Assembly (NCBI GenBank): GCA_903918045.1
Contig: CAIXCY010000016.1
Span: 1-64,000, forward strand
Reading direction: 5' to 3'
DNA: 64,000 bases
Origin: an uncultured Bacteroidia bacterium
GTDB lineage: Bacteria; Bacteroidota; Bacteroidia; Bacteroidales; Prolixibacteraceae
Below the pieces are notes generated by a model. It was not told the DNA's origin and searched no databases. It worked only from the letters and a program-made list of their open reading frames with translations. Made by a program: the position numbers and the translations under genes. Of this stretch, positions 13,491 to 33,837 are shown piece after piece (positions within the stretch are counted from its first letter, which is position 1; every line of letters begins with the position of its first letter).

Positions 13491-16400
13491 TTATGCTGTT
13501 TTACTTAAGATTCCAATTACTTCAAGAGTGAACTCACTATTCTCTGCCATTGCATTAAAAATCAATTCAGGACTAAGCACCAGTAAGGTAGTGCTCGTTT
13601 CCGCTTTAAGTCTCACTTCATCAAAACCATCATGCACGATACCCCAATAAGATTCACCCTCAATTAATTCTTTTCCCTTTTGACCTTTTGTAAATTGAGA
13701 TAATTTTCCAGTCAAAACAAGCAATATTGAATCCTGTGCCTTTTCTTCGGGACTAAGTTCCTCACCGGCCTGCAAACGGATATCCGTTGCATTTTCAATT
13801 ATTCTTGCAATATCCGGATTAGGAAATGCACTGAAAAGCGGGTTTTGTTTCAGCCGGTTTACCTTATCGAAGAGTGAAAACTGCGGAAAATCCTCAGGTG
13901 GTTCAACGATGTATTTATTTATAAAACTCACTTTTACTTTATCCAGTTTACTAAAAACAGTGTTAAAGCGTTCTGAATTTTGTTTTTTTAGAATCTTCAC
14001 TGAATTTTCCATAATAAAGGGATCGGGGTTCAGGAAGTTGGAAAGGAAAACGGATTCATTATCCGGAAACTCCTGCAGGTAAATAATTGCACAAGCTTTT
14101 GTCCACCTGTTGATTTTCAGGTAATCTTTATTGATGATATCTTTAAGCCGTTCAATCACAGTCATTTTTTGCTGCGGGTATTTATCCTTGAAAAGGTGTA
14201 AGCTTTCCTCAACCGTTAGTTCTTCGAGGAGTGGGAGGAAAATCTCCTTAATCTCAGGCGATACCGTTAAATCGAGCATCTCAGTTGCAAAAACTCTCGA
14301 TTCATGCGCGCCGTTATGAAAACTCTGCTGAATGAATTTCATTGTTTTGGAATCATAGAGCATCGAGAGCAACAGAAAAACGTTCTCCTTTTTCTGATTC
14401 AATTCTTCGTGCAATGCCTCTACCAACAGGGGCATCTGATTACCCTTCTCAATATCCAGCGTGGCAGCCATTATCCAAACTGTAACCGCAATTTCCTCGT
14501 CTATGGTTTCCCTGATCCGGCTAACTTCCATTATTCTGGCATGATACTCCAGTTTGCTTAATGCCTTAAAAACCTGATTTCGTATCGCTTCATCAGGATA
14601 TTGAATACGTGAGCGGAGAGAATTCAAGGACTTTTCGCAACTTATACTTGAAAAAATGGCAATAATTTTAAGCCTCACATCTTTTGTCGTAGTATTCTTG
14701 TCAAACCAGAGGTCGAGTTCGGATAAGATCGGTTCACCGATCATTTTTATAGCTGTAATTGCCTGAGTCGAATAAATCGGTATAAACAGATTATAAATAA
14801 TAAAATGCCACAATTCCCTCTTCCCGATCTGACCGGCGCTATAAAGAGCCGCATTACGGGTTTCCGGATTCTCGTCCTGCAATAGTGCCTGCATTATCTT
14901 GTAGATCTTATAACTGCTGAAATAGGCTAGAATGTGAGCGGCAAGAGTTCTTTGCTTTGCCTCTGTCGATTGAGATAAAAACAACAATGTCTCAAAATCG
15001 TTACTCCTGACCTGATGCAAAACAGACAACGTATGTTCGAACAGCTCTTTATTGATTGCCTCAGGATTAGCAAGCAATTGATTTTCAACAATCTGTTCCG
15101 CCGATAGTAACCGTCTGCGCTTTATTTGTTCAAGTATTTTTTCCTGATTTATCAATGTTGGAAAGGCAAGTACCTGCTGCAGAAACCGGCTCATTTTCCG
15201 GGGCTCTATATTGATCATAACATTCATGATCAAGGTAAAATTTACATCCTTATCTTCTTCTGTTAATTTACTGAGTACGGCAAGATTTGACATGAACTCA
15301 TTCGATTTAGAATTATCTTTATCATTTGATGTGAGGATCCGACCAAGCGAGCGTCGGTATTGATTGTACATTTCAAAGCTGAATTTGACCCATACTGCTA
15401 GTATAAGGATGAAAAGAATATTGAAGTAGACCAGATTAACGATTTTAATCTGAGTAAAAATCAGAACTACCGCACCGGCCAGGGCAAAACCCAGCCCCTT
15501 GCCCATTCCTTCAACCATTCCCTGAGCTTTAGAACGGTCCTCTGCCGGCAGTGGCTGGTATAATATCTGATACGAAGGGTCGTAGATAGCGCTGCGTAAC
15601 ACGCGGTCGAGCATCTTGGTGAAGGCAATAAATGAGAAGAATAGACCGGTAGGTCCATATAAGATACCTGAGGCTATGGCCAGAAAAACACACCCTGCAA
15701 GGACCACCGGTAATATAGGAAGCGCCAGTTTTAGTCCGTATTTATTGAGTAATCTTCCGGAAAAGAACGATTTGAGCACGAATTCTGCCACAGCAGTTGC
15801 TCCGAAGAAGATACTCAGGAAGCTGGCAAGAACCTCCTGATTTTTATATTCCTGCTTAATCTGGTGCAGAAATGAGAAGTCGGCAAAGCACATCCCAAAC
15901 ATAGGGAGTAAAGCCATGATAATGAGTACGACAAGATATTTGTCTTTAAAATCGATCTTAAAGGAGGTGTTCTTTTCAGGCACCTGCAATGGCTCCGGAA
16001 TACTTAAAGGCTTTTGAAGCTTCCCGAAGATGTAGACCATCAGAATCAGGCAGATTCCCAATCCAAAAAGGGAGATGTAGAGCAGATCGGCAGTATTTAT
16101 AAAATGCAGGACAAAAGGGATTGAGAAGAAGCCAACGATATCGGAAATAACCTCACCCGAGCTAATAAGTCCAAAAATTCGTTTCCCCTGACGAAGGTCA
16201 AACAATTTGGTTGCAAGCCCCCAGAATCCAACCACCGATATAAAGATAAACACGCGAATCCAGGCAAACATCAGAAATGTAAGCCATTTGCTATTGAAAT
16301 AATGGATCCCGGTTACAAAGGCAATAACGGCCATCAGGAGGAGAAATATGCCCATAATTGTTAGCTTTTGAAAGCTTACTCCCCGTTCAATACGCGCATA

Positions 16401-16610
16401 GACAAGCCATGCAATATAACTCAGAATACCGCCACAGATATAGGCATAAGGCAACATCGAACTCTCAAAATTTACAACAAACATTGAGGTTGCCGAAGTA
16501 TAAAAAAATGCAATCACTGTGCCCATAACGAAGGAATAGAGTAAAAGCAGTCCAGTGGCTGTCTCTTCTCCTTTTCGGACATTCAGGGCATTTAAAATTG
16601 CGTTCTTCAT
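13491..16610 (-). CDS. NTT/MFS-like membrane carrier fused to HEAT-like repeats and a C-terminal cyclic-nucleotide-binding-like domain
   Basis: 1039 aa; about 12 TM segments in the N-terminal 430 aa, helical repeats (TRNAALYSAGQIGKRELW...), C-terminal segment LFSAFPNPDIARIIENATDIRLQAGE...VLTGKLSQF. Confidence 0.78.
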   Translation of the reverse strand: MKNAILNALNVRKGEETATGLLLLYSFVMGTVIAFFYTSATSMFVVNFESSMLPYAYICGGILSYIAWLVYARIERGVSFQKLTIMGIFLLLMAVIAFVTGIHYFNSKWLTFLMFAWIRVFIFISVVGFWGLATKLFDLRQGKRIFGLISSGEVISDIVGFFSIPFVLHFINTADLLYISLFGLGICLILMVYIFGKLQKPLSIPEPLQVPEKNTSFKIDFKDKYLVVLIIMALLPMFGMCFADFSFLHQIKQEYKNQEVLASFLSIFFGATAVAEFVLKSFFSGRLLNKYGLKLALPILPVVLAGCVFLAIASGILYGPTGLFFSFIAFTKMLDRVLRSAIYDPSYQILYQPLPAEDRSKAQGMVEGMGKGLGFALAGAVVLIFTQIKIVNLVYFNILFILILAVWVKFSFEMYNQYRRSLGRILTSNDKDNSKSNEFMSNLAVLSKLTEEDKDVNFTLIMNVMINIEPRKMSRFLQQVLAFPTLINQEKILEQIKRRRLLSAEQIVENQLLANPEAINKELFEHTLSVLHQVRSNDFETLLFLSQSTEAKQRTLAAHILAYFSSYKIYKIMQALLQDENPETRNAALYSAGQIGKRELWHFIIYNLFIPIYSTQAITAIKMIGEPILSELDLWFDKNTTTKDVRLKIIAIFSSISCEKSLNSLRSRIQYPDEAIRNQVFKALSKLEYHARIMEVSRIRETIDEEIAVTVWIMAATLDIEKGNQMPLLVEALHEELNQKKENVFLLLSMLYDSKTMKFIQQSFHNGAHESRVFATEMLDLTVSPEIKEIFLPLLEELTVEESLHLFKDKYPQQKMTVIERLKDIINKDYLKINRWTKACAIIYLQEFPDNESVFLSNFLNPDPFIMENSVKILKKQNSERFNTVFSKLDKVKVSFINKYIVEPPEDFPQFSLFDKVNRLKQNPLFSAFPNPDIARIIENATDIRLQAGEELSPEEKAQDSILLVLTGKLSQFTKGQKGKELIEGESYWGIVHDGFDEVRLKAETSTTLLVLSPELIFNAMAENSEFTLEVIGILSKTA

Positions 16611-17474: not shown

Positions 17475-20133
17475 AAATAAATCGAATTAAGAAATTTCGG
17501 CCGCGCTGAGGTGTACGATAGGAATAGAAGCCTCCGTCAGCGGATCTGATTCCAGGATCGGCATATTGCTTGTCTAATAAATTGTTACAAATCAATTGTG
17601 CATTAAATCCGGGTAAGATATCCTTATACATCATTGAGCCATTGAATAATACAAATGCCGGAAAGTTGCCGGGATTGGCACTGACTGAAGTTCCGGCTCC
17701 GACAGGCCGGTTACTTACATAATTCATTCTCAGGTTCAGATTTAGATGGTTAAAGTAGATTGCATTAACCCCTGTATTAAAGTGAAACGCTGAAATGTCT
17801 CCAATCCGCTGATAGCTATTTGTCAGAACCCCGTTTTTTAGAATATTGTTTTTGGGATCGGTATAGGTGAAATTGGCATAAATTGCATATTGATTTAATT
17901 TGATAGTCATACTGGACTGTAGCCCCTGAATTTTCAGGGCGCCGATAGCCTGATTCTGACCCGTTGTAGTCCCGTCGGCCAATTTCACAATGCCTGTGCC
18001 TACAACACCATTAAACTGAGAATTATAATAAACAAGATCGACAAAGATGTTTTTAGTAAAACGGTAGGCAATGCTTAAATCAAGATTAGATACCTTTTCG
18101 GGGTTAAGATTTGGATTATTGACTTTACGCGAGGTGTTGGTTGAAAATTTGGTCCAGTTTGAGGCATTCTGAAATGCACTCGCATAAACACCCTTAAAGA
18201 TAAATTTACCCGGGGTCACCACCAGGGCTATTCGCGGATTAAACTGAGAGCCAAATCCTCCGGTAACACGTATTTTATTATAATCGTAACGTCCGCCAAC
18301 CGTAAACTTGTAAATCTCCTTAAACTTCAGGGTTCCTTGTGCATAGGCTCCCAGATCATAAATAGTGAAATCATTCCCTCCCACTATGGCATCACCGGAA
18401 CTTCTTCCAATTTCAATAACACTGGATGGATTTAGGAGTGCATTTGGAATTTTATTGGGTGCAACAAGGTCGTTACCAATATAAGTGGCCGTACGGTAAT
18501 CTCCCTGAATGGAACTGTTTCGTACTTCCATACCACTTACCACGTTGATCAGCGAATTGGGATTATAGGTTATCTTAAATTCGTTTCGAAACTGCCTTGA
18601 AATCTGATAATAAAATTCGGTTACCCAAAAAGGGTTGACATTGGCTGCCAGATCTGCACTCCCAAGTGACCCGTTTGAATAATTGAGCAGGTAAACAGCT
18701 TTTGAATTATCCGATACTTCAGTGATCCGGTACTCGGAGAAGTTCATCAGGTTAATTTTTTCAGAAATATTGTTATCGTATTTCATATAGAAAAAAGATT
18801 GTTTGGGTGCCCACCTGCTACCATTATTTGAACCTGCTTCATTGTTGTCGTTGTAGTAGTTGGTTCCACCCGACTGAGTTTTCCAAAATTCATATCCTAA
18901 CTGGAGATTTTTCATCTTTAATTTTCCATTAAAATACCAATGGTCGGAGATGTTGGAATACCCGATTGAATTTCCATTTAATTTTTGATTCAGGGCTGCC
19001 TTATCGTAATTTCTGGCAGCATTTGCACCAGCTTCCGTCAACCCAACTGAAACAGTATCGCCCTGCTGATCCCTGTTTATTGTAAAATAGGGGTTGTCAG
19101 ATCCAATATGGTTAGTTTTCACGAAACCGGCGGCATTGGAATTCACGCCTAAAAAAGAGCCGTAATCGATTGCATTATAGTTGGAGGGATCGTAGTTAAA
19201 CTCCGAATATCCTGAAAGGTTCTCTTCTGATGAGTTAAATCGTTTTATCGTTGTAGAAAAAGAGACATTATTTTTTCTGGCCGCTATAGTCATGTCCAGG
19301 TATTTGGTATTGTAGCTACCCCATCCGGAATTGAGTTTGACACCCAGATTCTTTTTCCCGGCAAGCTGATCCGGGTCGCGCGTGATTACATTGACCACTC
19401 CCACCAGGGCATTAGCCCCGTACATTGTTGATGCAGGACCATAGAGTACCTCAACCCTTTCTACATTGGAAACAGGAAACTGGCGCGACCAATAGGAGAT
19501 ATTCGACCATAAATCATTCTCTTCAACCCCGTCGACCAGAAAGAGTGTCCGGTCTGTATTATTGGAGCGATAACCTCTTTGATAAATATTTGAATAGGTA
19601 GGACCAAAGGTTCTGGAGACATCAAATCCGGGTAAATCGCTAAAGACCTGTTCCAAATCAATATATCCGCGATTTATAATATCTTCTCTGGAGATCACCA
19701 TCACGGTTGCAGGAGCTTCATGCAGATTTTCCGCACGTTTGGATACCGATATAATTTGAATACTTGATCCTGCCTGCTTAATCTCATTGATGATCTGTTC
19801 AAACTTCGGCGGACCAAAAAGTTCTGCATCAAAATCGGGTTTTATCTTTATCAGTTTATTGGCGAAGGAAATAGCCAGACTGGTGGAGTCAATGGCCAAA
19901 CTTGAAACCGACATTAACCTGTAAGCCTGGATCAGTTGTTTTTGTGAAAACCCATTTTCCATGCAAGGCTGAAGCATCCGTTGTACGTCGTTAAATAATC
20001 CGATATCATATTTTTTTTGAGCCTCATTTATTACATTATCGTCGCATTCCTGACTCCACGACTGGAGTGAATAGAACATAACCACAATCAGAAATAAAAT
20101 ACGGTAATGGCTGCTGGCTTTAGTCTTGGACAT
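17464..20133 (-). CDS. TonB-dependent receptor with N-terminal helical/TPR-like periplasmic extension
   Basis: 889 aa; plug ATVMVISREDIINRGYIDLEQVFSDLPGFDV, NVERVEVLYGPASTMYGANALVGVVNVITRDP; C-terminal RGRNFLIRFIYEF barrel end. Confidence 0.92.
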   Translation of the reverse strand: MSKTKASSHYRILFLIVVMFYSLQSWSQECDDNVINEAQKKYDIGLFNDVQRMLQPCMENGFSQKQLIQAYRLMSVSSLAIDSTSLAISFANKLIKIKPDFDAELFGPPKFEQIINEIKQAGSSIQIISVSKRAENLHEAPATVMVISREDIINRGYIDLEQVFSDLPGFDVSRTFGPTYSNIYQRGYRSNNTDRTLFLVDGVEENDLWSNISYWSRQFPVSNVERVEVLYGPASTMYGANALVGVVNVITRDPDQLAGKKNLGVKLNSGWGSYNTKYLDMTIAARKNNVSFSTTIKRFNSSEENLSGYSEFNYDPSNYNAIDYGSFLGVNSNAAGFVKTNHIGSDNPYFTINRDQQGDTVSVGLTEAGANAARNYDKAALNQKLNGNSIGYSNISDHWYFNGKLKMKNLQLGYEFWKTQSGGTNYYNDNNEAGSNNGSRWAPKQSFFYMKYDNNISEKINLMNFSEYRITEVSDNSKAVYLLNYSNGSLGSADLAANVNPFWVTEFYYQISRQFRNEFKITYNPNSLINVVSGMEVRNSSIQGDYRTATYIGNDLVAPNKIPNALLNPSSVIEIGRSSGDAIVGGNDFTIYDLGAYAQGTLKFKEIYKFTVGGRYDYNKIRVTGGFGSQFNPRIALVVTPGKFIFKGVYASAFQNASNWTKFSTNTSRKVNNPNLNPEKVSNLDLSIAYRFTKNIFVDLVYYNSQFNGVVGTGIVKLADGTTTGQNQAIGALKIQGLQSSMTIKLNQYAIYANFTYTDPKNNILKNGVLTNSYQRIGDISAFHFNTGVNAIYFNHLNLNLRMNYVSNRPVGAGTSVSANPGNFPAFVLFNGSMMYKDILPGFNAQLICNNLLDKQYADPGIRSADGGFYSYRTPQRGRNFLIRFIYEF

Positions 20134-23100
20134 TACTTATCGGTTTTAAATTGGGGACACAGCTCCTGGTATAAAATATCCTTACCTACGAAGGTTGTCC
20201 ACTCATTTTTTGTTAAATTACGGTTTACCTTTAGGCAGATCCTTGATGCCAGCAGATCGCTGTTTATCTCGGAAACCCGGATTGTCTTATCGTTACTGGC
20301 CGATATCAGACTATTTCCATCCGGAGTAAAGAGTGCCTCCATTACCCATGAATCGTGACCGGCAATTATAATCGGGTTTTGTTTTGGTTCATCCGGGTTC
20401 CATATCCGGATAGTATTGTCGTAACTTGTGCTTACAAATGTTTTGTTGTCGGGACTAAACCGGAGGGAAGTTATACCTGAACGATGATCCAGATATTCCA
20501 ATGGGTTTTTTGTTGGTTCGGAGAGGTTCCATAAATTGATCATCCCTGAATTGTATCCGGCAAGTAACAATCCGCCATCGGAATTAAGCGATATGGAGAG
20601 GATTTGTTTTTTCGTATTGAGCAAAACCGGTGTTTCGTTGAAATTTGAAACCTGAAACAGTTTGACAACACCCTTCTGATCAGCAAATGCGATTTTTTTT
20701 CCGTCACCCGAAATTGCCAGATCCTTTACCGGTGCCTCCATTTGAATTGAAAACAGGGGTAGGTTCAGCGCATTAAGATCCCACACTTTACAGAAACCGT
20801 CAGCTCCGATAGTGACTATTCTGTTTTGCGAGATAAAACCGATTTTGTTGATTATTCCTATGTGGGCAACCACGCTTCCGGGTAAACTCCCCACCTCTCC
20901 ATTATTCCAGAAGAGAATCGTCCCATCTGCAGTCCCCGCAACTACCCCCTTTTGATCGGCAGCAACAGCCCGTATACCGCTCCCCGCAAGACCGTTTGTG
21001 CTGAGTGAACCGGGTTTCTCATGGGGGGTATTTAATGACCACACGAATAAGTGACCGTCGTCACTCGCTGAGAAAAGTCGTTTCCCATCTTTGGATAATG
21101 CAACTCCCCTGACAGCATCTTTATGTCCGCGAAAAACCAATTTATCAACACCCGCATTTGAGAGGGCATTATAAATATCAGGATCATCCTTTCGTCCTCC
21201 ATTATCATGATTAAAATTAAAGGCATGGCCGGCCAGAAGAGCCGATAATACCGGATTTGTCCCGGCTACGCGTTGAGATTGAATGGCCATAGAACGTGCG
21301 ATAGCCAAAAGTCTTAACCGTTGTGTCTTAATTTCGGACCGAACGGCCTGATCTGCCGATTTTTCTGCCCTTCTGGCTGAGGTATCAGCCAATATTTTTG
21401 CTGCACGGGCAACAATTTCGCTTCGCTTTGCCCGCATTGCTGCCGAGTCGGCCAATACTTTGGCTGACTTAGCCGCCAGTTCACTTTTTTGGGCTGAATC
21501 CTGCTGTGCAACGGCAAATAGTCTCTGCTCCTCCGTGATTAGCTTTTGTTGTTCTGCAATTTTCTGTTGCTGTTCTGCAATCCGTTTCTGTGCAACGGCC
21601 TCTTTACGTTGTATCTCAGCCCTTTTATTTTCATTTTCCAGTTCAATCCCCTTTTCAATAATTATTTTACTGCTGGCATCAGCCTTTAATTTTGAGTCAA
21701 CAGATATTATCAAAAACAGAATTGAGATAATCGATGCTATACTTAGAAAAATAACGATTTTTCGGGAACGGCTTAACTCTCTTTTTTGGGCGTTCTCTTT
21801 TTTCCTGATTTCGAAATCAGACTCCTTCTTGCTGTAATCCAGAAAATCGATAGCCCGCTCAAAACCTGGATCATAACGTTCACCCCAGTACGGAGTCGGC
21901 TTATTCTTTTGCTTCCATTTAACCCCGATTTCCAACTCAGGATTGGTCCACAACCCCGATTTCCCCTGTTGGTATAATTCTGCAGACCTGGATAAACGAA
22001 GGTATAATTCTGCCGATTTAGTCTCTTCATCGACCCAATCCCGAAGTCTCTCCCACACCCGCATAATACTCTCATGAGAGATGTCTATTACAGTGTCAGA
22101 TTGGATCGGAACATCATGTGGCGGCATTAAAAATGTTCTTCCAGGCGCCCTGAACTGATCTATTATTTCAATCAGATCGCTCTCAGATGCATTGATCGTT
22201 TTAACGATATCCGAAAAAATGGTCGGTCTTCGGGTGCCTCTTTTCTCTGCACTAAGATCGGTAAGCGATTTAAATAAACGCTCCGTATTGACCTTTTGTT
22301 CCTCCCTATTGAGTTGACCAAAAATCTCCTCCGCATGGAGTGACAACGCTGAATTAATTGTTCCAACTGCCTCGTAATGAAGAATATCCAAAGGCTGATC
22401 TCCGATCCTGTTTATATTCCAGTAATCCCAGGCACGCATTAATGCATGCTGCATCACGGGTAGCTGATCTGTCTTATTTCCTAAATCAGCGATCAGACGT
22501 TCGACCAGTTTAATCGAAATATCATCTCCATTTACTTGAACCGGTTTTATAATTGCATCCTTGAGAGATTGAAGTGTCATCCGGGGAACCAGGAAATGAC
22601 CTTTGTTAATAGCCTCTGTTAATCCGGGTATTTCGGTACACGGGTCCAAAAAATCTGACCTCATTGTCAGAATAATAAAAATAGGGGCATTAAAATCCTT
22701 CTTACGGACTAAATCAAGGAACAGATTGATAAAAATAAATGTTTCCTCTTTATCGACTTCCGAATTGACCTTCTTCTGATATCTGAAGGTCTCCTCAAAC
22801 TGGTCAATAACAATAAGCCAGGGATCGCACCCCAGATCGTTATGTACTTTTAATAATGGATTATTATCAATGCGTAAGGACTTTTCAATATCTTTTGGTT
22901 GGATTAAAGCTGTCCCTTTAGTTTTCGCCTTTCGGTTAAAAGTCTGAGCGTATTCTGTTGCAAAGGAGAGGACCGGATTATCTCCGGGCTTAAAAACTGT
23001 AATATCCCAGTGGTTCTGATCGTGAATCTCACTCTTTCGGATAGCCGGGATAACCCCTGCCCTCATTAGCGAAGATTTACCGCTTCCGGAAGAGCCTATA

Positions 23101-23240
23101 ATAGCAAGGAAATGGGTGTCGCGAAGAACCGAAACAATATTTTCGATCTGACTCTCCCGTCCAAAAAACAGGTGACTCTCCTCCGTTTCAAAACTTCGGA
23201 TGCCGGGAAAAGGATTAAGGTGAGGTTTTAGTTGAGCCAT
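20133..23240 (-). CDS. nSTAND1-type NTPase, TM, coiled coil and C-terminal WD40 propeller
   Basis: 1035 aa; NPFPGIRSFETEESHLFFGRESQIENIVSVL, Walker A IGSSGSGKSSLMRAGVIPAI, Walker B WLIVIDQFEE; TM IVIFLSIASIISILFLIIS; Ala/Gln-rich coil; WD40 blades (FRGHKDAVRGVALSKDGKRLFSASDDGHLFVWSL and others). Confidence 0.92.
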   Translation of the reverse strand: MAQLKPHLNPFPGIRSFETEESHLFFGRESQIENIVSVLRDTHFLAIIGSSGSGKSSLMRAGVIPAIRKSEIHDQNHWDITVFKPGDNPVLSFATEYAQTFNRKAKTKGTALIQPKDIEKSLRIDNNPLLKVHNDLGCDPWLIVIDQFEETFRYQKKVNSEVDKEETFIFINLFLDLVRKKDFNAPIFIILTMRSDFLDPCTEIPGLTEAINKGHFLVPRMTLQSLKDAIIKPVQVNGDDISIKLVERLIADLGNKTDQLPVMQHALMRAWDYWNINRIGDQPLDILHYEAVGTINSALSLHAEEIFGQLNREEQKVNTERLFKSLTDLSAEKRGTRRPTIFSDIVKTINASESDLIEIIDQFRAPGRTFLMPPHDVPIQSDTVIDISHESIMRVWERLRDWVDEETKSAELYLRLSRSAELYQQGKSGLWTNPELEIGVKWKQKNKPTPYWGERYDPGFERAIDFLDYSKKESDFEIRKKENAQKRELSRSRKIVIFLSIASIISILFLIISVDSKLKADASSKIIIEKGIELENENKRAEIQRKEAVAQKRIAEQQQKIAEQQKLITEEQRLFAVAQQDSAQKSELAAKSAKVLADSAAMRAKRSEIVARAAKILADTSARRAEKSADQAVRSEIKTQRLRLLAIARSMAIQSQRVAGTNPVLSALLAGHAFNFNHDNGGRKDDPDIYNALSNAGVDKLVFRGHKDAVRGVALSKDGKRLFSASDDGHLFVWSLNTPHEKPGSLSTNGLAGSGIRAVAADQKGVVAGTADGTILFWNNGEVGSLPGSVVAHIGIINKIGFISQNRIVTIGADGFCKVWDLNALNLPLFSIQMEAPVKDLAISGDGKKIAFADQKGVVKLFQVSNFNETPVLLNTKKQILSISLNSDGGLLLAGYNSGMINLWNLSEPTKNPLEYLDHRSGITSLRFSPDNKTFVSTSYDNTIRIWNPDEPKQNPIIIAGHDSWVMEALFTPDGNSLISASNDKTIRVSEINSDLLASRICLKVNRNLTKNEWTTFVGKDILYQELCPQFKTDK

Positions 23241-23507: not shown

Positions 23508-24686
23508 TCAGTTGCGGCCGTTAAACCGAATTGCCATTAAAGTTATATCATCGGATTGGGGCACTCCTGCCGAGAATTCGGAAACTGAAGCAAATGATTT
23601 TCGGACAACCTCTTCGATTGGACCTCCCATCTGCTCATGCAAATAGGTGACCAGCCGAACATCCCCATAAGGCTCCTCCTGATTATTAAAGGCTTCAGTC
23701 ACCCCATCTGTAAAAAGGAATAACAAATCCCCGGGATTTAATTTTACATTTTTTGATTGATATTCAACATCTTCAATACACCCCAAAATAGGACCTCCGG
23801 TCATTTCAACTAATTTCACATTATTTTCTGAAACGATGTACGGTGGATTATGGCCTGCATTAACGTATTCAATCTCGCCACTGGCTATATTTAGGATTCC
23901 GTAGAAAACGGTAACGAACATCAATGAATCATTGTCATTGCAAAGCAACCTGTTCACATAGTTCATGCATTCGTGCGTTGTTACACCCTTAATTCCGGTT
24001 GCCCTGATCAGTGTTCGACTAACAGCCATAAATATTGCAGCAGTTACCCCTTTGCCTGAAACGTCTCCGATCACAAAGCCGAGTCGTTGGTTATCGATCA
24101 TAAAGAAATCGAAGAAGTCACCTCCAACCTCCTTGGCCGCTATCATAGAGGCAAAAATGGAGAATTCAGGGAAGTCAGGGAATGGAGGAAATATTTTAGG
24201 AAGAATGGCCTGCTGAATCCCGCGCGCAGTTCGCAGATCCTGCTGTATTGCAATTAACTGATCGTGCTCCTGCGCACTATTCCACGCTAAGGCAATCTCA
24301 TCAACCGACTTATTGATTGTGATCTCAAGGTCATCAAAACTGATTGGCTTTGTGAGAAAATCAAAAGCACCCCGGTTCATCGCAGTCCGGATATTTTCCA
24401 TATCCCCATATGCCGAAACAACCACTGTCTTTAATAATGGATTTTTTAGCTCCTTCAACTTCAGCAGTAACGTCAACCCATCCATTTCAGGCATATTTAT
24501 GTCGGAAAGGATAAGTCTTATTTCAGGCTGTTCGATCAGCATTGAAAGCGCTTCCAAACCGTTGTGTGCAAATACAAAATTGTACAAACCATCTTTGATT
24601 TGCGTGCGAAACTTTTGCCTGATAAGTGACTCAAGGTCAACCTCATCATCCACAACCATAATCTTCATTTCCAACTTATCACCCAT
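23508..24686 (-). CDS. Response regulator receiver fused to SpoIIE/PP2C-type phosphatase (paralogue of 6915-8099)
   Basis: 392 aa; VVDDEVDLESLI, LILSDINMPEMDGL, VGGDFFDFF, GDVSGKGVTAAIFM, FTDGVTEAFN, QSDDITLMAI. Confidence 0.94.
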   Translation of the reverse strand: MGDKLEMKIMVVDDEVDLESLIRQKFRTQIKDGLYNFVFAHNGLEALSMLIEQPEIRLILSDINMPEMDGLTLLLKLKELKNPLLKTVVVSAYGDMENIRTAMNRGAFDFLTKPISFDDLEITINKSVDEIALAWNSAQEHDQLIAIQQDLRTARGIQQAILPKIFPPFPDFPEFSIFASMIAAKEVGGDFFDFFMIDNQRLGFVIGDVSGKGVTAAIFMAVSRTLIRATGIKGVTTHECMNYVNRLLCNDNDSLMFVTVFYGILNIASGEIEYVNAGHNPPYIVSENNVKLVEMTGGPILGCIEDVEYQSKNVKLNPGDLLFLFTDGVTEAFNNQEEPYGDVRLVTYLHEQMGGPIEEVVRKSFASVSEFSAGVPQSDDITLMAIRFNGRN

Positions 24687-24749: not shown

Positions 24750-25079
24750 TTATCCCTTAATCGCTGCTTCCTTATGAGGGAATATCGTAAAAATGGAAGA
24801 AAATCCTGAAATATCGAAGATCTCTTTAATCCCCGGCTGAAGGCTGCACAGACTGAAATGTCCTTTGGAGGCCATCATTTTTTTCTGAACAACCAGGAAA
24901 ACCCTTAAACCTGAACTGCTGATATAATTAAGTGCTGTACAGTCAAGAACAATTCGTAAGGCTCCTTCTTCCAGGATACCCATCATTGTTTTTTCGAATT
25001 CACCCGCATTGGTCGTATCGACACGTCCCTCAACGCTCACTAATACATATTCTTCTGTTTTAAAAACTTCTACATTCAT
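24750..25079 (-). CDS. STAS-domain anti-sigma factor antagonist (RsbV/SpoIIAA-like)
   Basis: 109 aa; VEGRVDTTNAGEFE...IVLDCTALNYISSSGLRVFLVVQK. Confidence 0.92.
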   Translation of the reverse strand: MNVEVFKTEEYVLVSVEGRVDTTNAGEFEKTMMGILEEGALRIVLDCTALNYISSSGLRVFLVVQKKMMASKGHFSLCSLQPGIKEIFDISGFSSIFTIFPHKEAAIKG

Positions 25080-25492
25080 ACAATAATATTTTTTGTAAGT
25101 ATTAAAAAATTCTTGTTCTCCTTACGTTTATATTCAACCTTATCCATAATCTTCTTGATCAGGAAAATCCCCAATCCTCCGATCTGCCTGTCTTCAGTGG
25201 AAAGAGAGATATCCGGATCCTCTTTCAGGGTTGGGTCGTAAGCTATTCCATCATCAATAAATGTGATATACAGTTGGTCCAGATCATTTTTAAAATCAAT
25301 TTCAATGGTGTGCTCCAGTTGGTCGTCAAATCCATATAAAATGATGTTGGTCAGAGCCTCCTCAACAACAAGATTTAAAGAAAATACAAGTGGAACAGAG
25401 AGTTCCCACTCTTCGCCTAATTCGTCCAGGTAAGCCACTACCCGGTTCAGTTCTAACATCTGATTCTTAACCAATAGTGTTTTGCAATTCAT
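25076..25492 (-). CDS. RsbW/SpoIIAB-like HATPase (anti-sigma factor type serine kinase)
   Basis: 138 aa; N-box VVEEALTNIILYGF, G1 IDDGIAYDP, G2 GGLGIFLIKKIMD; overlaps the STAS gene by 4 nt. Confidence 0.9.
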   Translation of the reverse strand: MNCKTLLVKNQMLELNRVVAYLDELGEEWELSVPLVFSLNLVVEEALTNIILYGFDDQLEHTIEIDFKNDLDQLYITFIDDGIAYDPTLKEDPDISLSTEDRQIGGLGIFLIKKIMDKVEYKRKENKNFLILTKNIIV

Positions 25493-25762: not shown

Positions 25763-26056
25763 TCATAACAGCAGATCACCCAGGCTAGTCATTTCAAAAA
25801 CATATTTAACATTTGGATCAGCATTTTCAATTTTAAGCGTAAATCCCTGTCTTTTGACCTCTTTCAATGCCATAAGTATCATCCTGATTCCGAGTGATCC
25901 CAGGAAACTAACTTCAGAAAAATCGAGTACGACAGGAGCCTCGAGGCCATTCAGACAGGCAAAAAATTTAACCTCATTATTGGAAACATAGTTACTGTCA
26001 AGTCGCCCGGAAAAGGCAATTTTAACTATGGATGTATCCGATTGAATAACTTTCAT
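25763..26056 (-). CDS. STAS-domain protein
   Basis: 97 aa; FSGRLDSNYVSNNE...VVLDFSEVSFLGSLGIRMILMALKEV. Confidence 0.85.
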   Translation of the reverse strand: MKVIQSDTSIVKIAFSGRLDSNYVSNNEVKFFACLNGLEAPVVLDFSEVSFLGSLGIRMILMALKEVKRQGFTLKIENADPNVKYVFEMTSLGDLLL

Positions 26057-26277: not shown

Positions 26278-28590
26278 ATGAAGAAAAATTACCTCTCCTT
26301 TTTTTTCCTTTTCGCTATTTTGGCTTTCGCAGGATGTATTCGCGGCAAATCGGATAAACTAACGAAGGGGGCCTCAGGGAGCGATTCAAAAGCTGTTGAT
26401 ACTGATTCCAGACTCAAATTAAGCAAACTTGATGATCTTAATGATAAACGGATCGGTGTTTTGCTAGGTTCCATCCACGACACTTATGCAACAAAGAAGT
26501 TTCCCAATGCTAAAATCCTTCAATATCAGAATTTCTCAGATCTGGTCATTGCAGTGAATACTGAAAAGGTTGATGCCGCATTTTTCAGCATGAACTATCT
26601 TCCTGAAGTGATGGCAGCCAATCCACAAGTGGGTGTTTTAGTGGATAGTTTATGGTCTGTTGGAATTGGGGCAGGTTTCAACAAGGAGAATGGCAAACTC
26701 AGGGAGCAATTCAACACTTTTCTCAGCGGGATTAAATCAAACGGTATTTATTCAGATATGGTGACCCGATGGATGAAAAACCGGTCAACAGAAATGCCAG
26801 CGATCAAAACCCCTAAGACCAATGGGGAAATCAGAGTAGGTACAGTGAGCGATATGGGAGTGCCGTTTGCATTTATAAAGGATGGCAAATTAATGGGGTT
26901 CGATGTCGAGCTATCCACCCGTTTTGCAGCCTATCTGGGGAAGGAGATCGTATCGGTAGATATGCATTTTGGAAGCTTGCTTGCCGCGGTTTCAACAAAT
27001 AAAATCGATTATATTAACAGCTCGCTTGCGATAACTGAAGAACGAAAAAAACAGATAGACTTTTCCGATCCCTATTACCATTCGAATGTTTGCATTATCG
27101 CGAATAAAAAAAATCTGGCTTCCGAATCTTCGGGTAAAATGAAGACAGAAGCCGACCTGGCAGAGAAGCGGATCGGCATATTCGCCGGGACGGTGCATGA
27201 CGCATTTGTCTCACAAAAATATCCTAAGGCCAGGGTTTTCCAGTACAACAGCTCATCGGATATGATCTTATCACTCAAAACAGATAAAATTGATGCGGCA
27301 ATGTTCGATGTTATAACCGCCCGGATTTTAATGAAAGGGAATCCGGATCTTGGAGTGTTAACCGATAAAATCTTTGATATGCCATTGGGCATTGGTTTTA
27401 ACAAAAACAATCCTAAACTGCGAAATGAATTCAATATTTTCCTCAAAAAGATCCGGTCAAATGGGGTCTATGATGAAATTTTCAAGCGTTGGTTTGTTGG
27501 TGATGTCGAAAAGGCGGTTATGCCCACTTTTAATAATGTCGATTCACCAAAAAAACTTGCTGTTGCAGTGGCCGTTGAAGACCTTCCTTATGTCACGGTT
27601 ATAAATGGCGACTTTGTAGGATTCGACATTGAAATGATCAAACGATTTGCGGAGAGTCAAAAATACCATCTTGAAATTACGACCCTCGCCTTTCCATCCC
27701 TGGTGGCAGCGCTTGCATCTGGCAAAGCCGATATGATTGCTGACGGAATTGCCATCAGTGCAGAGCGTTCCAAACAAATTGATTTCTCTGACAGTTATGC
27801 AGAATTTAAAACTGCGGTGATTGCATCAAAGAAGAATTTAATTGGGAATGACGAGGAACCTGTTCACCCGGTCAAAATCTCACTCTTCAAGTCACTATCA
27901 AACAGCTTTTACAATAATATAATCCTGGAGAACAGGTATCTGATGATTCTTGATGGATTGAAAGTTACGATTCTCATCTCAATTCTCTCCGCACTCTTCG
28001 GAACACTTATTGGAGCCCTGATCTGTTTCATGCGCATGTCTAAAAGGAAATTTCTTTCGGTCGCCGCCCGTCTTTACATCTCCCTGATCCGGGGAACACC
28101 GGTGTTGGTACTTTTAATGATTATTTTTTATATTATTTTCGCTTCGGTTAATATCAATCCAATCCTTGTCGCAGTTATCGCTTTTGGCTTAAATTTCGGC
28201 GCCTATGTTTCCGAGATGTTCCGGTCATCGATTCAAAGTGTCGACAAAGGGCAATATGAAGCTGGTATTGCCTCCGGTTTTTCCGAAATTCAAACATTTA
28301 TCTATATCATTATGCCTCAGGCTATTCGCCAGGTTCTTCCTGTTTACAAAGGCGAATTTATTTCATTGCTGAAAATGACTTCGGTCGTCGGCTATATTGC
28401 TGTTCAGGATTTAACAAAGGCCAGCGACATTATCCGAAGCCGCACTTTTGATGCTTTTTTCCCGCTGATCATGGCAGCGGTACTTTATATAATCATTGCC
28501 GGATTGCTGACCTGGGGACTTAGTTATATTGAAACCACGGTCGATCCGAAAAGAAAACGGACAATTAAAAAATCGGAGATAAAGTTATGA
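26278..28590 (+). CDS. Polar-amino-acid-type ABC importer: four substrate-binding half-domains (lobe 2-1-2-1) fused to permease
   Basis: 770 aa lipoprotein-like start; SBP lobes ([20 protein letters not shown]...[27 protein letters not shown]) followed by permease with EAA-like loop [30 protein letters not shown]. Confidence 0.9.
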
Positions 28591-29666
28591 TCAGGGTAGA
28601 AGGTCTTTCGAAGCATTATGGCGAACTTGTTGTTCTGAAGGAGATAAATACAGTTATTCACAAAGGGGAAATTATTTCAATTATTGGTCCTTCTGGGACG
28701 GGTAAAAGCACTTTTCTCCGTTGTTTGAATCTTCTGGAGACTCCAACCGGGGGTGATATTTTTATCGACGATGTCCCGCTTTTCGATAAAAACACCAGTG
28801 TTCCAAAGGTTCGGCAGAAGATGGGAATGGTTTTTCAATCGTTCAACCTCTATGCCCACCTTTCGGTATTGGAAAATTTAACCATCGGTCCTATAAAACT
28901 GCTTGGAAAGAAAAAAGAGGAAGCAAATAAAAGAGCTGTTGAACTGCTGAATCTTGTGGGGCTTGCCGAAAAGGTTAACAGTTTTCCGGATGAGCTCTCC
29001 GGAGGCCAGAAACAACGCGTTGCAATTGCACGGTGTATGGCCATGGAACCTGAAATTTTACTCTTTGATGAGCCAACCTCCGCCCTTGATCCCACGATGG
29101 TAAGCGAAGTGCTCGCCGTCATCCGCCGTCTGGCACGCGAAGGGATAACGATGGTAATTGTCACTCATGAAATGGAATTTGCTGCCAATATCTCAAGCCG
29201 TGTTTTTTACATGGACGAAGGGCTGATCTATGAGGAGGGGTCACCTGAACAGATATTTGAAAATCCACAGCGGGAAAAGACCAAAACGTTCATCCACCGC
29301 ATCCGAAGTCTGGTCCGGCATATTTCGAGTAAGGCATACGATTTATATGCCATTCAGGGGGAGATGGAGATCTTTTGCGAAAAGCATATGCTGCCCAAAA
29401 AAGTGAGTGATGACATTATGCTGATCGTCGAAGAGGTCTTAACGCTGCAATCCGATTTTTCAGATATTGATCTTAGCCTCTCGTATCACGAAAAAGATGG
29501 AAGCATCGAATTCTTATGTGAAAGTACCGGTAACCTCACAAATTTGCTGGATGAGACTTCAATGGAGGATAATATCGGTATCCTGATTCTTAAAAGCCGT
29601 TGCAAGCATATTGATTACCGCTATGTGAATGGTCGGAATATCATTAACCTGACGGTAAAGCTATAG
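28587..29666 (+). CDS. Amino-acid ABC transporter ATPase with C-terminal degenerate RsbW/HATPase-like extension
   Basis: 359 aa; Walker [10 protein letters not shown], signature [14 protein letters not shown], Walker [15 protein letters not shown]-terminal about 115 aa [19 protein letters not shown]...[31 protein letters not shown] resembles the adjacent RsbW-like protein. Confidence 0.9.
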
Positions 29667-29861: not shown

Positions 29862-31469
29862 TTATTTATCAAATTCAGGCCTGATCGACTTTGTCCAGCT
29901 ATTTAATAACCAGACAGTGCGCTGATAATGGTCTGTCATATCCAGCAAAAATGATTTGTCGACAGAATTAAGGAATTGACTGTCAGAAAGATGAAAGCTT
30001 CTAACACGTTCCATGAGTGGCCCCTTATCCTCCGTTATTTTTAAAAGAATTTCAATATCAAACCGCTCCTTCGATTTTGTTGCTTCCACTGCCGTGATGA
30101 AATTCACATGAAGTGATTCGATTGAATTCTGAACCAGTTCTTTCAGACCTTCAGTAATTTGAAAATCATCAATCATACTTACAAAACTAAATACAGTTTG
30201 ATCGATTGCCTTTAGAAGTGTTTGCCTGTTTTGAAGTACTACATAAATTTCGGAATTCGAACGCGATAAATTAAAGTGTATTATTCGCTTTAAGTACAAA
30301 TCAATTTCGTTAATCAGGAAGATATTTGATTTATGAATTACGATGAAGTCATGGATAATCTCAAGTCCTTTCTCGCTACGAATATTATCAATGGATTCGG
30401 AAAATCGTTCAAAGATCCTTACCTGCTCATTCTCAGCAAGGATTAAAGCTGTGGTAATGTCGGACAGCGACTGTTCTGTTATGAAACTTGTTTTTGACAA
30501 ATCTTCCTCTGATGTCGGAGGGCTTATCCGGACCAAAAGGGTGTAGATCGGATTATATAAAAAAGATAACAGGAGGACAGGTGCAGTTCTGAAAATTAAA
30601 AACGCCATTGCTGTTTGTTGCTCAATATTCGAGCTCGTGGAATTTATTAGTCGTCTGATTATTTGGATATTCCAGTTGAATTCAACGGATAATATAATTA
30701 ACAGTATCAAGGATGTAAATACAGACTCAATCACTTTAAAAATGACAATTTGTTTCGAGACCCCCTTCAGGCTGGAAGAGATTAACACAAGGGAGATTGC
30801 TTCACCAAAACTCATGCTCACTATGATCAGGATTACCTGATCGAGCCCGATTAGTCCTGCATGGCTTAAGGTCATCACCAGGACAGCTATGGTGGCAGAG
30901 GAGTGAATTATTAGCCGCAGGAAGATTCCGATTAAGACTGAAATAATAAAGGAATCTTTTGAATAATAGAACATTTCACGTACGAACTCCATTTGAGCAA
31001 ATGGCTGTGATCCGGATTTGAGCAATTGAAATCCAAAAAGAAGGATGCTAATACCAAAAAGTGCATTATACAGGATTTCCCTTTTGCTTCCTTTGTCAAA
31101 CCCATAAAAGATACCCCCAAAACCAACTAAAAAAAGGATGGCCAGCTTAATGTTAAATGCAACTAGGAATATAAGCAATGTAGTTCCCACATTGGACCAG
31201 ATAATAACCGGCAGGGAATTTCGAACACTGATTAATCGGCCATGGACTAATCCAACCAGAATAAAAATCGTATTACTGCTGCTTTGGGTAATTCCGCCAG
31301 AGGCAAAACCCCAAAAAGCCGCCAAAAAAGGGTTGCGGGTCCATTTGGCAATCAGCAGCCTAAGCTTGTGACTTGCCATGTTTTTCAGTGAATTACTTAA
31401 TATCTTGATTCCACTGAAAAAAAGCCCGATCCCGGCTATCATCGTGGCAAAAGTTTCAATTGTACTCAT
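29862..31469 (-). CDS. Na/Pi cotransporter family protein with PhoU-like C-terminus
   Basis: 535 aa; GFASGGITQSSSNTIFILVGLVHG and duplicated LIIHSSATIAVLVMTLSHAGLI motifs; helical C-terminal domain. Confidence 0.88.
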   Translation of the reverse strand: MSTIETFATMIAGIGLFFSGIKILSNSLKNMASHKLRLLIAKWTRNPFLAAFWGFASGGITQSSSNTIFILVGLVHGRLISVRNSLPVIIWSNVGTTLLIFLVAFNIKLAILFLVGFGGIFYGFDKGSKREILYNALFGISILLFGFQLLKSGSQPFAQMEFVREMFYYSKDSFIISVLIGIFLRLIIHSSATIAVLVMTLSHAGLIGLDQVILIIVSMSFGEAISLVLISSSLKGVSKQIVIFKVIESVFTSLILLIILSVEFNWNIQIIRRLINSTSSNIEQQTAMAFLIFRTAPVLLLSFLYNPIYTLLVRISPPTSEEDLSKTSFITEQSLSDITTALILAENEQVRIFERFSESIDNIRSEKGLEIIHDFIVIHKSNIFLINEIDLYLKRIIHFNLSRSNSEIYVVLQNRQTLLKAIDQTVFSFVSMIDDFQITEGLKELVQNSIESLHVNFITAVEATKSKERFDIEILLKITEDKGPLMERVRSFHLSDSQFLNSVDKSFLLDMTDHYQRTVWLLNSWTKSIRPEFDK

Positions 31470-31575: not shown

Positions 31576-33837
31576 TCAACCCTTTTGCGGGAGAATTAAA
31601 TCACTGCCAATAAGAGTTTTACATATTAGTCCCGAGACAATCATCGACAGGCGTTTATGTTCGAATGTAGCGGAGGAATAACACACAATCGGCATGATCC
31701 ACTCGAGTAATGCCATGCAATAGGGGACCGGATCGGTGTTTTGACCCACTGATTTGAAGGCATATTCCCTCATTTTCATTGTGAGGGCGACATTTTTGCT
31801 GACCTGTTCAGAATGATCTCCCACATAAATGGCATCCGGTTTCTGATCAAGCCGAACAGTATCGTAAAAACTGCAAATAAATTTCAGATATACCTCAGTC
31901 TCCTTTTCGTCATGCAGTGGAGCGTTATCCACCATAAATATGGCCTCGAGCCTTGCAAAGTCGGATATCACCGAGCGAGGTTTAGTTTCTGAGAAATCGA
32001 TCAGGTACACATTCATATCTTCGTCCAGCAGGATATTCTGCATATTCAGATCACCGTGACAAATGGAGGTATAATAGTTGATTTCGGTTTCACGTCGACT
32101 GGCAAACTCATGATTCAGAAACCAATAAGGATTAACAAGCTGCTGAGTGACCTCTTTAACATTAAAAAACTTTTCATCAGGAGAAATGGAGAGCTGATCC
32201 GAAGCGGTTTCGCAAAGTTGCGGAAAGAAGGTTGATCTGGGGTCGTGATCCTGAAAAGGATGAATTACCTCCTGAATTGGTTGTCCATACCAGGGATGGA
32301 GGATTTGGAGAAATATCTTGTCAAACAACGGTTCCAGTTGTTCTGTAGTCCAGTTATGAAAATAGTGTGTCAACCATCTCAGCCGTGTTTGTTCCCCTCC
32401 AATTCCTACGAAGTTATACCTTAGCGCCCCTGCGTTTCCAAAGAATTCGGTCCCCAGCACCATCGCACTGTTATTTAATATATATGGATTTGCATACCGT
32501 TTACAGCGGTCCGATTCCCGGGAGATCATTGCCCGGTCTGCAATTTTCATGACTGTAGGCCTTAGTTTTCGCCCCTCGTGATCATACGAAGTTACCTGGA
32601 AAGTTTGGGCTGAATAACCACCATGAATACGGCTGATTTTAACCCTTCCTGAATCGGTGTATAACCTGCGGGTCAGGAATGCTATATGAGGTTCAAGTAT
32701 AAAATCATCAGTTTCTATTTTAAGACGTTTAGCCGATGGATCGGAAACCCCGTTTGAAACGAACATCCAGCATACGGGATTAATCAAATGATCGTCATGG
32801 GAGAGGGGTGCAACCTCAATAATATTCTCAAAAGTCAAAACTTTCTTCAGAAAATCAGGCAAAGTGACCTCAACGGGGGCAGGTGGAATATCGCTCAGGA
32901 GAAATCTGGCTCCCCAAAGACGGAGACCATTTGTCCCAATCGCAATCAGACCTTCTGTAACGGTAAATTCAGATAACTTTAGCAATTCGTTTAATTCCTG
33001 GTCGACCAACGCACACAGTGAAACAGAATGATTTCCAGGTTCAAAATTTACAATAACCAGCGCCATTAAATCCGGTTCACCCGATTTAAACCGCTGTTTT
33101 ATTGGATATATTGCTTCGACGAGGTGCTCCAGAGAGATCGAAGCCGGGTCAGACAACCTCACCTGGCCTGATGGCTGGCCACCGAATGAGAGCGCCCGAT
33201 TGACAAAAATACCGGCCCCTGCCGGTTGCTCAGGAATTCTGAAGTCGGATGGAATTCGGGGGTCATCAGGAAAAAACCCGGAACAATGGCCAATCGAGAT
33301 AAAAACTCCCCTTATCAGCGGATCTTCCTCCGGTGTTTCGGCGGGGGATCCGATTCCAACTGAAAATCCCAGTTCATTGTACCCGGCAATCCCCGGACTT
33401 TTCCAGATAAAGGCAGCATCTTTTTTATTTTCAATCGGATAAAAATTAAAAGAATAGGCCCCATCTAACCATTTGCCTGATCCTTTTGAAATTAATTCGA
33501 GTCGTTCGATCTCACTTCTTGCCGCTTCGATATTCTGAAACAGATGAAATACTTTATTTAATCCGGACATTTCGAGGACCTGAAAGACCTCAGGCAATAA
33601 TCCTGAAAGAAACAAGCCACCTCCCCTTGCCAATAACTTCTTTTCATAAAGTAAGATGATCCGGATGCCTGCGCTGGAAAGGTATTCGCATTGGGACATA
33701 TCAATAATCAGAAAATTTCCCTGCTCAATCACGCTTTGGAGGGCCTGCCCGAATTCACTGCTGCTAATGGAGTCTATCCGCCCTGCCGGAATCACAAGCG
33801 GGATGGATAGGTCAGCTTTAATTGTGACGGTGATCAT
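31576..33837 (-). CDS. STAS domain, unassigned middle domain and C-terminal aminoglycoside-phosphotransferase-like kinase domain
   Basis: 753 aa; STAS LIIDMSQCEYLSSAGIRIILLYEKK; kinase motifs GGYSAQTFQV, TVMKI, SICHGDLNMQNILLDEDMNVYLIDFSE. Confidence 0.85.
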   Translation of the reverse strand: MITVTIKADLSIPLVIPAGRIDSISSSEFGQALQSVIEQGNFLIIDMSQCEYLSSAGIRIILLYEKKLLARGGGLFLSGLLPEVFQVLEMSGLNKVFHLFQNIEAARSEIERLELISKGSGKWLDGAYSFNFYPIENKKDAAFIWKSPGIAGYNELGFSVGIGSPAETPEEDPLIRGVFISIGHCSGFFPDDPRIPSDFRIPEQPAGAGIFVNRALSFGGQPSGQVRLSDPASISLEHLVEAIYPIKQRFKSGEPDLMALVIVNFEPGNHSVSLCALVDQELNELLKLSEFTVTEGLIAIGTNGLRLWGARFLLSDIPPAPVEVTLPDFLKKVLTFENIIEVAPLSHDDHLINPVCWMFVSNGVSDPSAKRLKIETDDFILEPHIAFLTRRLYTDSGRVKISRIHGGYSAQTFQVTSYDHEGRKLRPTVMKIADRAMISRESDRCKRYANPYILNNSAMVLGTEFFGNAGALRYNFVGIGGEQTRLRWLTHYFHNWTTEQLEPLFDKIFLQILHPWYGQPIQEVIHPFQDHDPRSTFFPQLCETASDQLSISPDEKFFNVKEVTQQLVNPYWFLNHEFASRRETEINYYTSICHGDLNMQNILLDEDMNVYLIDFSETKPRSVISDFARLEAIFMVDNAPLHDEKETEVYLKFICSFYDTVRLDQKPDAIYVGDHSEQVSKNVALTMKMREYAFKSVGQNTDPVPYCMALLEWIMPIVCYSSATFEHKRLSMIVSGLICKTLIGSDLILPQKG

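Follow-up and report, generated by a model that had tools for sequence, protein, structure and literature searches.

A STAS–TCAD9 fusion kinase from an uncultured Bacteroidia bacterium as a candidate output of an Rsb-type partner-switching system

Partner switching has been described chiefly as a means of controlling sigma factors and, more recently, repressors and toxins. In a 64,000-nucleotide stretch of the genome of an uncultured Bacteroidia bacterium (contig CAIXCY010000016.1; hereafter the window), a single gene encodes a STAS domain, a middle domain and an APH-type kinase domain in one chain. What is a STAS domain doing in front of such a kinase, and on what does the kinase act? Here we propose, at roughly even odds (about 0.5), that the protein serves as the output, or effector, in partner switching of the Rsb type, with phosphorylation of the STAS domain gating its kinase. 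The observations behind this proposal are the domain order and its conservation, the intact active sites, the linkage to and co-occurrence with Rsb-type genes, and a middle domain of common descent with that of an importer-linked STAS protein.

A STAS domain and an APH-type kinase in one chain

The reading frame of the gene (Table 1) is exactly that given in an initial annotation made from the sequence without database searches, and the motifs quoted there are all present: GGYSAQTFQV (residues 406–415), TVMKI (with Lys431), HGDLNMQN (594–601) and LIDFSE (612–617). None of the NCBIfam models exceeded its cut-off for the 753-aa protein. The N-terminal STAS domain claimed there is recognized by Pfam at residues 14–106, and its model matches SpoIIAA closely (1th8_B; Foldseek TM, target, 0.88). 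A phmmer alignment to the same SpoIIAA chain places Ser55 opposite Ser58, the phospho-acceptor position (PMC8256260), and Ser55 is unchanged throughout our 22-sequence alignment of homologues. At the level of sequence, the protein has the pairing that marks an Rsb-type STAS switch, a STAS domain with a serine at the phospho-acceptor position.

Table 1. Features of the fusion gene and of its neighbourhood in the window.
Feature	Coordinates	Strand	Evidence or remarks
STAS-(middle domain)-TCAD9 kinase gene	31576..33837	-	753 aa, ATG start; ORF, Pfam, 22-genome alignment
STAS domain, residues 1–110	33508..33837	-	PF01740 E 2.2e-15; Foldseek to SpoIIAA 1th8_B
Ser55, predicted phospho-acceptor	33673..33675	-	Aligned with SpoIIAA Ser58; invariant 22/22
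Middle domain, residues 112–345, family-less	32803..33504	-	Pfam, AlphaFold, PDB, STAS-X homology
TCAD9/APH-type kinase domain, residues 398–745	31603..32646	-	PF19974; Foldseek APH folds
Gly-rich loop HGGYSAQTFQV, residues 405–415	32593..32625	-	G406, G407, A410, T412 invariant
Lys431 (TVMKI), candidate ATP-binding lysine	32545..32547	-	Invariant 22/22
Catalytic loop HGDLNMQN, residues 594–601	32035..32058	-	D596 and N601 invariant
Metal-binding IDFSE, residues 613–617	31987..32001	-	Invariant 22/22
Na/Pi cotransporter-like gene	29862..31469	-	PF02690 E 6.8e-37; 106 bp downstream of kinase gene, co-directional
GlnQ-like ABC ATPase with C-terminal degenerate RsbW-like extension	28587..29666	+	Pfam, NCBIfam, profile comparison
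Solute-binding domains and ABC permease, fusion	26278..28590	+	PF00497 three stretches, PF00528
Stand-alone STAS protein	25763..26056	-	PF01740 E 8e-12
RsbW-like serine kinase	25076..25492	-	PF13581 E 3e-22
Stand-alone STAS protein, RsbV-like	24750..25079	-	PF01740 E 4e-19; TIGR00377 over cut-off
RsbU-like phosphatase, receiver and SpoIIE	23508..24686	-	PF00072; PF07228 E 1.8e-51

The likening of the C-terminal domain to TCAD-type kinases is upheld by the curated TCAD9 threshold in Pfam (PF19974, E 5.4e-35, 121.8 bits against a gathering cut-off of 40; best stretch 565–703), and the domain also gives a weaker match to APH (PF01636, E 1.2e-6). The 429-position TCAD9 profile is covered in two stretches, 8–146 and 275–410, with its centre unmatched. 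The APH-type active-site set is complete, comprising the Gly loop, Lys, Glu, HxDxxxxN and the D of DF(G/S); K431, E441, D596, N601 and D614 are invariant in 22/22 homologues, so that the catalytic set is as intact as had been claimed, and G595 is replaced by Q or R in two homologues, L100 and L101, in which the catalytic HGD reads HQD or HRD. Mean column identity is 64% in the kinase domain and 35% in the middle domain, a difference that argues for selection on catalysis. Judged from these residues, the C-terminal domain is probably a complete and active APH-type kinase. Its closest solved folds (Foldseek) are APH(4), APH(3'), choline kinase, pneumococcal LicA and 25-hydroxysteroid kinase. In line with the initial annotation, it does not appear to be a drug-resistance enzyme: the specific APH models fall far under their cut-offs, and a search for copies on phages or plasmids found none. 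Our literature search found no paper on TCAD9 function, and the sole relevant mention was a figure legend on CRISPR-linked systems.

A middle domain shared with importer-linked STAS proteins

The segment between STAS and kinase had been described as about 200 residues of no recognized family; it indeed matches none, but it spans about 285 residues (112–397), of which ~121–314 form a folded domain and ~326–392 another alpha/beta segment, which runs on into the kinase. AlphaFold models the middle domain as largely beta strands with one long helix, with a mean pLDDT of 83 when modelled alone and good confidence within the full protein too. Across the 22 members Pfam gives just scattered chance matches, Foldseek finds no PDB or viral-model match with E <0.001, and neither PDB-sequence nor viral-structure searches returned anything convincing. 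A degenerate PP2C-like fold, the earlier suggestion, found no support: the profile comparison with the RsbU/SpoIIE phosphatases of the same loci gave E 0.06, with unrelated and shuffled controls at 0.03–0.75, and the best SpoIIE match by structure had E 0.77 and probability 0.04 (Foldseek).

The only relatives found for this domain are the post-STAS domains of STAS-X, a kinase-less protein of ~410 aa. The profile match (probability 96, E 4e-9; at least 0.12 in 20 column-shuffled controls) takes in about the N-terminal half of the domain, and BLASTP alignments with STAS-X continue from STAS into it. By these sequence comparisons the two domains share ancestry, and the middle domain is a candidate new family common to importer-linked STAS proteins.

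In relatives of the window's genome the STAS-X gene lies between genes for a solute-binding protein (ABC_sub_bind) and for a permease and ATPase. The kinase gene follows this importer operon as its co-directional last gene in L031, L032 and L035 (gap 38–77 bp); one gene intervenes in L033 (cytidylate-kinase-like) and in L039 (212 aa), and in L034 the kinase gene is divergent. No STAS-X protein was found in the window genome. In L035 the operon fills exactly the interval between the kinase gene and the homologue of the 33881–34240 gene, and it is this operon that the window lacks; the kinase is thus kept there without it. Many outgroups carry the kinase gene amid unrelated genes (tRNA synthetase, M1 peptidase, CstA), which weighs against the partner-switching proposal. 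Conversely, STAS-X/importer operons occur near RsbU, RsbW or STAS genes with no adjoining kinase gene in L042, L043, L045, L048, L050 and L106, which indicates that partner switching linked to importers extends beyond the kinase. Homologous proteins of ~500 aa are encoded at L102 (11219–12700), L042 (8891–10396) and L109 (237–1715); the one at L102 begins with an RsbW-like domain and has a C-terminus of no assigned family, and its gene precedes the kinase gene by 59 bp, co-directionally.

In the main rival explanation, TCAD9 phosphorylates a compound imported by the neighbouring ABC system, and STAS and middle domain merely localize the kinase to the transporter. LicA phosphorylates choline brought in by import, and both LicA and 25-hydroxysteroid kinase stand with the APH enzymes among the closest folds. 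The HGD loop is of APH type, the kinase gene ends the importer operon in the three loci named above, and action on small molecules has been proposed for an APH-like kinase of conflict systems (PMC7159879). Against this, most outgroups have no importer beside the kinase gene, and the kinase stays intact in the window genome, which lacks the STAS-X importer, from which we draw a mild lean away from such an activity. On balance we regard it as possible but rather unlikely.

Distribution and association with Rsb-type genes

The same architecture occurs at full length in 21 other genomes, at 29–69% identity. Within the window's family, 16 of 140 genomes, the window's included, carry a long homologue. 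An order-level TCAD9 search gave matches above the cut-off in 8 of 295 genomes (open frames of 746–933 aa), and the seven relatives aligned from it all have the order STAS, middle domain, TCAD9. Two further long homologues came from a phylum sample of 398 genomes, and the class sample held none besides the window's own. With few carriers per survey, all of the same domain order, the gene is rare and patchy in distribution and stable in architecture; since 21 other genomes keep both this order and the invariant catalytic residues, the fusion is not a chance event.

In the window, genes for RsbW, an RsbU-like phosphatase and two STAS proteins lie 6–10 kb from the kinase gene, providing both the kinase and the phosphatase that an Rsb switch requires. 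The kinase gene also has RsbW and STAS genes close by in L031, L032, L033 and L035 and, in other families, in L097 and L102; not all of these have RsbU. Between the Rsb genes and the kinase gene are transporter genes. The Na/Pi gene adjoins the kinase gene in L032 and L035 as well, with a distant Na/Pi homologue in L036. The ABC ATPase ends in ~115 residues that are RsbW-like (E 4e-5 and probability 70 by profile comparison, E 0.029 by Pfam) and have lost the N-box Asn; STAS proteins may dock on the transporter there. Farther off, positions 13491–16610 encode a predicted MFS-like membrane protein of 1039 aa with HEAT repeats.

The association extends to gene content. Of 18 kinase-bearing genomes, 17 have RsbW (E ≤1e-15), against 24 of 75 kinase-free genomes from a hand-picked comparison set (Fisher p 1e-6, kinship ignored); at E 1e-40 the counts are 17/18 and 12/75. 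The sole kinase-bearing genome tested without an RsbW match, G122, is 82% complete. Of the 16 kinase-bearing genomes of the family, 13 also have STAS-X, against 4 of the 124 others (p 2e-12, kinship ignored); several of the genomes behind these counts are incomplete, and shared ancestry is left in them. Neighbourhood and co-occurrence together bear out the earlier proposal that the kinase is tied to a STAS network. That its carriers nearly always have RsbW suggests a switch that acts on a second kinase instead of on transcription.

Proposed function and comparison with known systems

How might such a switch operate? By homology and linkage, the RsbW-like kinase would phosphorylate Ser55 and the nearby receiver-SpoIIE phosphatase would remove the phosphate. 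The phospho-state of Ser55, or docking of RsbW, may then rearrange the middle domain and so turn the TCAD9 kinase on or off; once active, the kinase would phosphorylate a target tied to the cluster's transporters. The likeliest target is a protein, either a regulator or part of a transporter, but a small molecule taken up by import is possible. A more specific version, which we advance tentatively, is that STAS directly gates the APH-fold kinase via an undescribed regulatory domain, forming a two-tier serine-kinase cascade from RsbW through STAS-X-TCAD9 to a target that serves nutrient importers and not a sigma factor. If the partner-switching reading is true, a conserved STAS-X-kinase adds enzymatic phosphotransfer to the outputs of partner switching, and the TCAD9 family gains a defined regulatory context with testable partners.

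The single chain of STAS and kinase, with stand-alone STAS genes nearby, could instead form a switch in cis, with TCAD9 phosphorylating its own STAS domain or the stand-alone proteins as an alternative to RsbW; this seems improbable, as the canonical STAS kinase RsbW is already there and a proven STAS substrate is not known to us for any APH-type kinase.

Similarly improbable is a role in conflict or defence, in which a TCAD-type immune system would have TCAD9 as its effector and STAS as its trigger. TCAD9 membership by Pfam would fit such a role, as would the report of TCAD9 with vWA-MoxR-VMAP (PMC10910872), the pairing of other TCAD9 proteins of the phylum with AAA_21/SMC ATPases, and an nSTAND1 NTPase–WD40 propeller fusion within the cluster (20133–23240, upstream of the RsbU/STAS/RsbW genes). 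The last gene is kept (68%) in L031 only, however, so that nSTAND1 lies near the kinase gene in these two loci alone; PADLOC gives just a marginal 24-residue match to mad6, there are the missing phage and plasmid copies noted above, and the neighbours are transporters and Rsb genes. No MoxR, vWA or VMAP/iSTAND gene was found among the neighbours scanned (2.7–39.7 kb of the window; relatives' neighbours), and the absence of these system-defining genes nearby makes a conflict role less likely. The link to STAND-linked conflict systems drawn in the initial annotation thus keeps one nSTAND1-WD40 gene in its favour and is otherwise weak. Neither of two eLife papers on conflict systems uses the abbreviation TCAD in its main text. 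Elsewhere in the phylum, TCAD9 proteins look different: two other genomes, at L119 (3423–7315) and L120 (6911–10773), pair a gene for an AAA_21/SMC-like ATPase with one for an APH/TCAD9 protein of ~655 aa, and this two-gene module looks like a separate TCAD9 system.

Returning to the partner-switching reading, the protein resembles several known systems, each in part. It scores three times the curated TCAD9 cut-off and matches both outer parts of that profile, but has only ~40 residues where the profile has ~128 positions (~147–274); no vWA-MoxR-VMAP genes were found among the neighbours scanned, and it is fused to STAS. With APH and the choline kinase LicA it has in common the fold and the HGD...DF catalytic motifs, but the kinase here sits inside a regulatory fusion. 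With RsbV/SpoIIAA, which work with RsbW/SpoIIAB and RsbU/SpoIIE, it shares the STAS fold and the phospho-acceptor serine, and RsbW- and RsbU-like genes are likewise present in the window's cluster; unlike in those systems, the STAS domain is fused through a new domain to a kinase, and no sigma-factor output is seen. MlaB, a STAS protein that acts on the ABC ATPase MlaF, is encoded with an ABC transporter, as here, but has neither kinase nor middle domain (PMC7367683). Precedents for STAS control of outputs other than sigma factors are CapK-CapS and VapK-VapS-VapC, in which a STAS domain attached or bound to the output is controlled by serine phosphorylation; what they regulate is a wHTH repressor or the VapC RNase (PMC13373217), whereas here the output would be an APH-type kinase.
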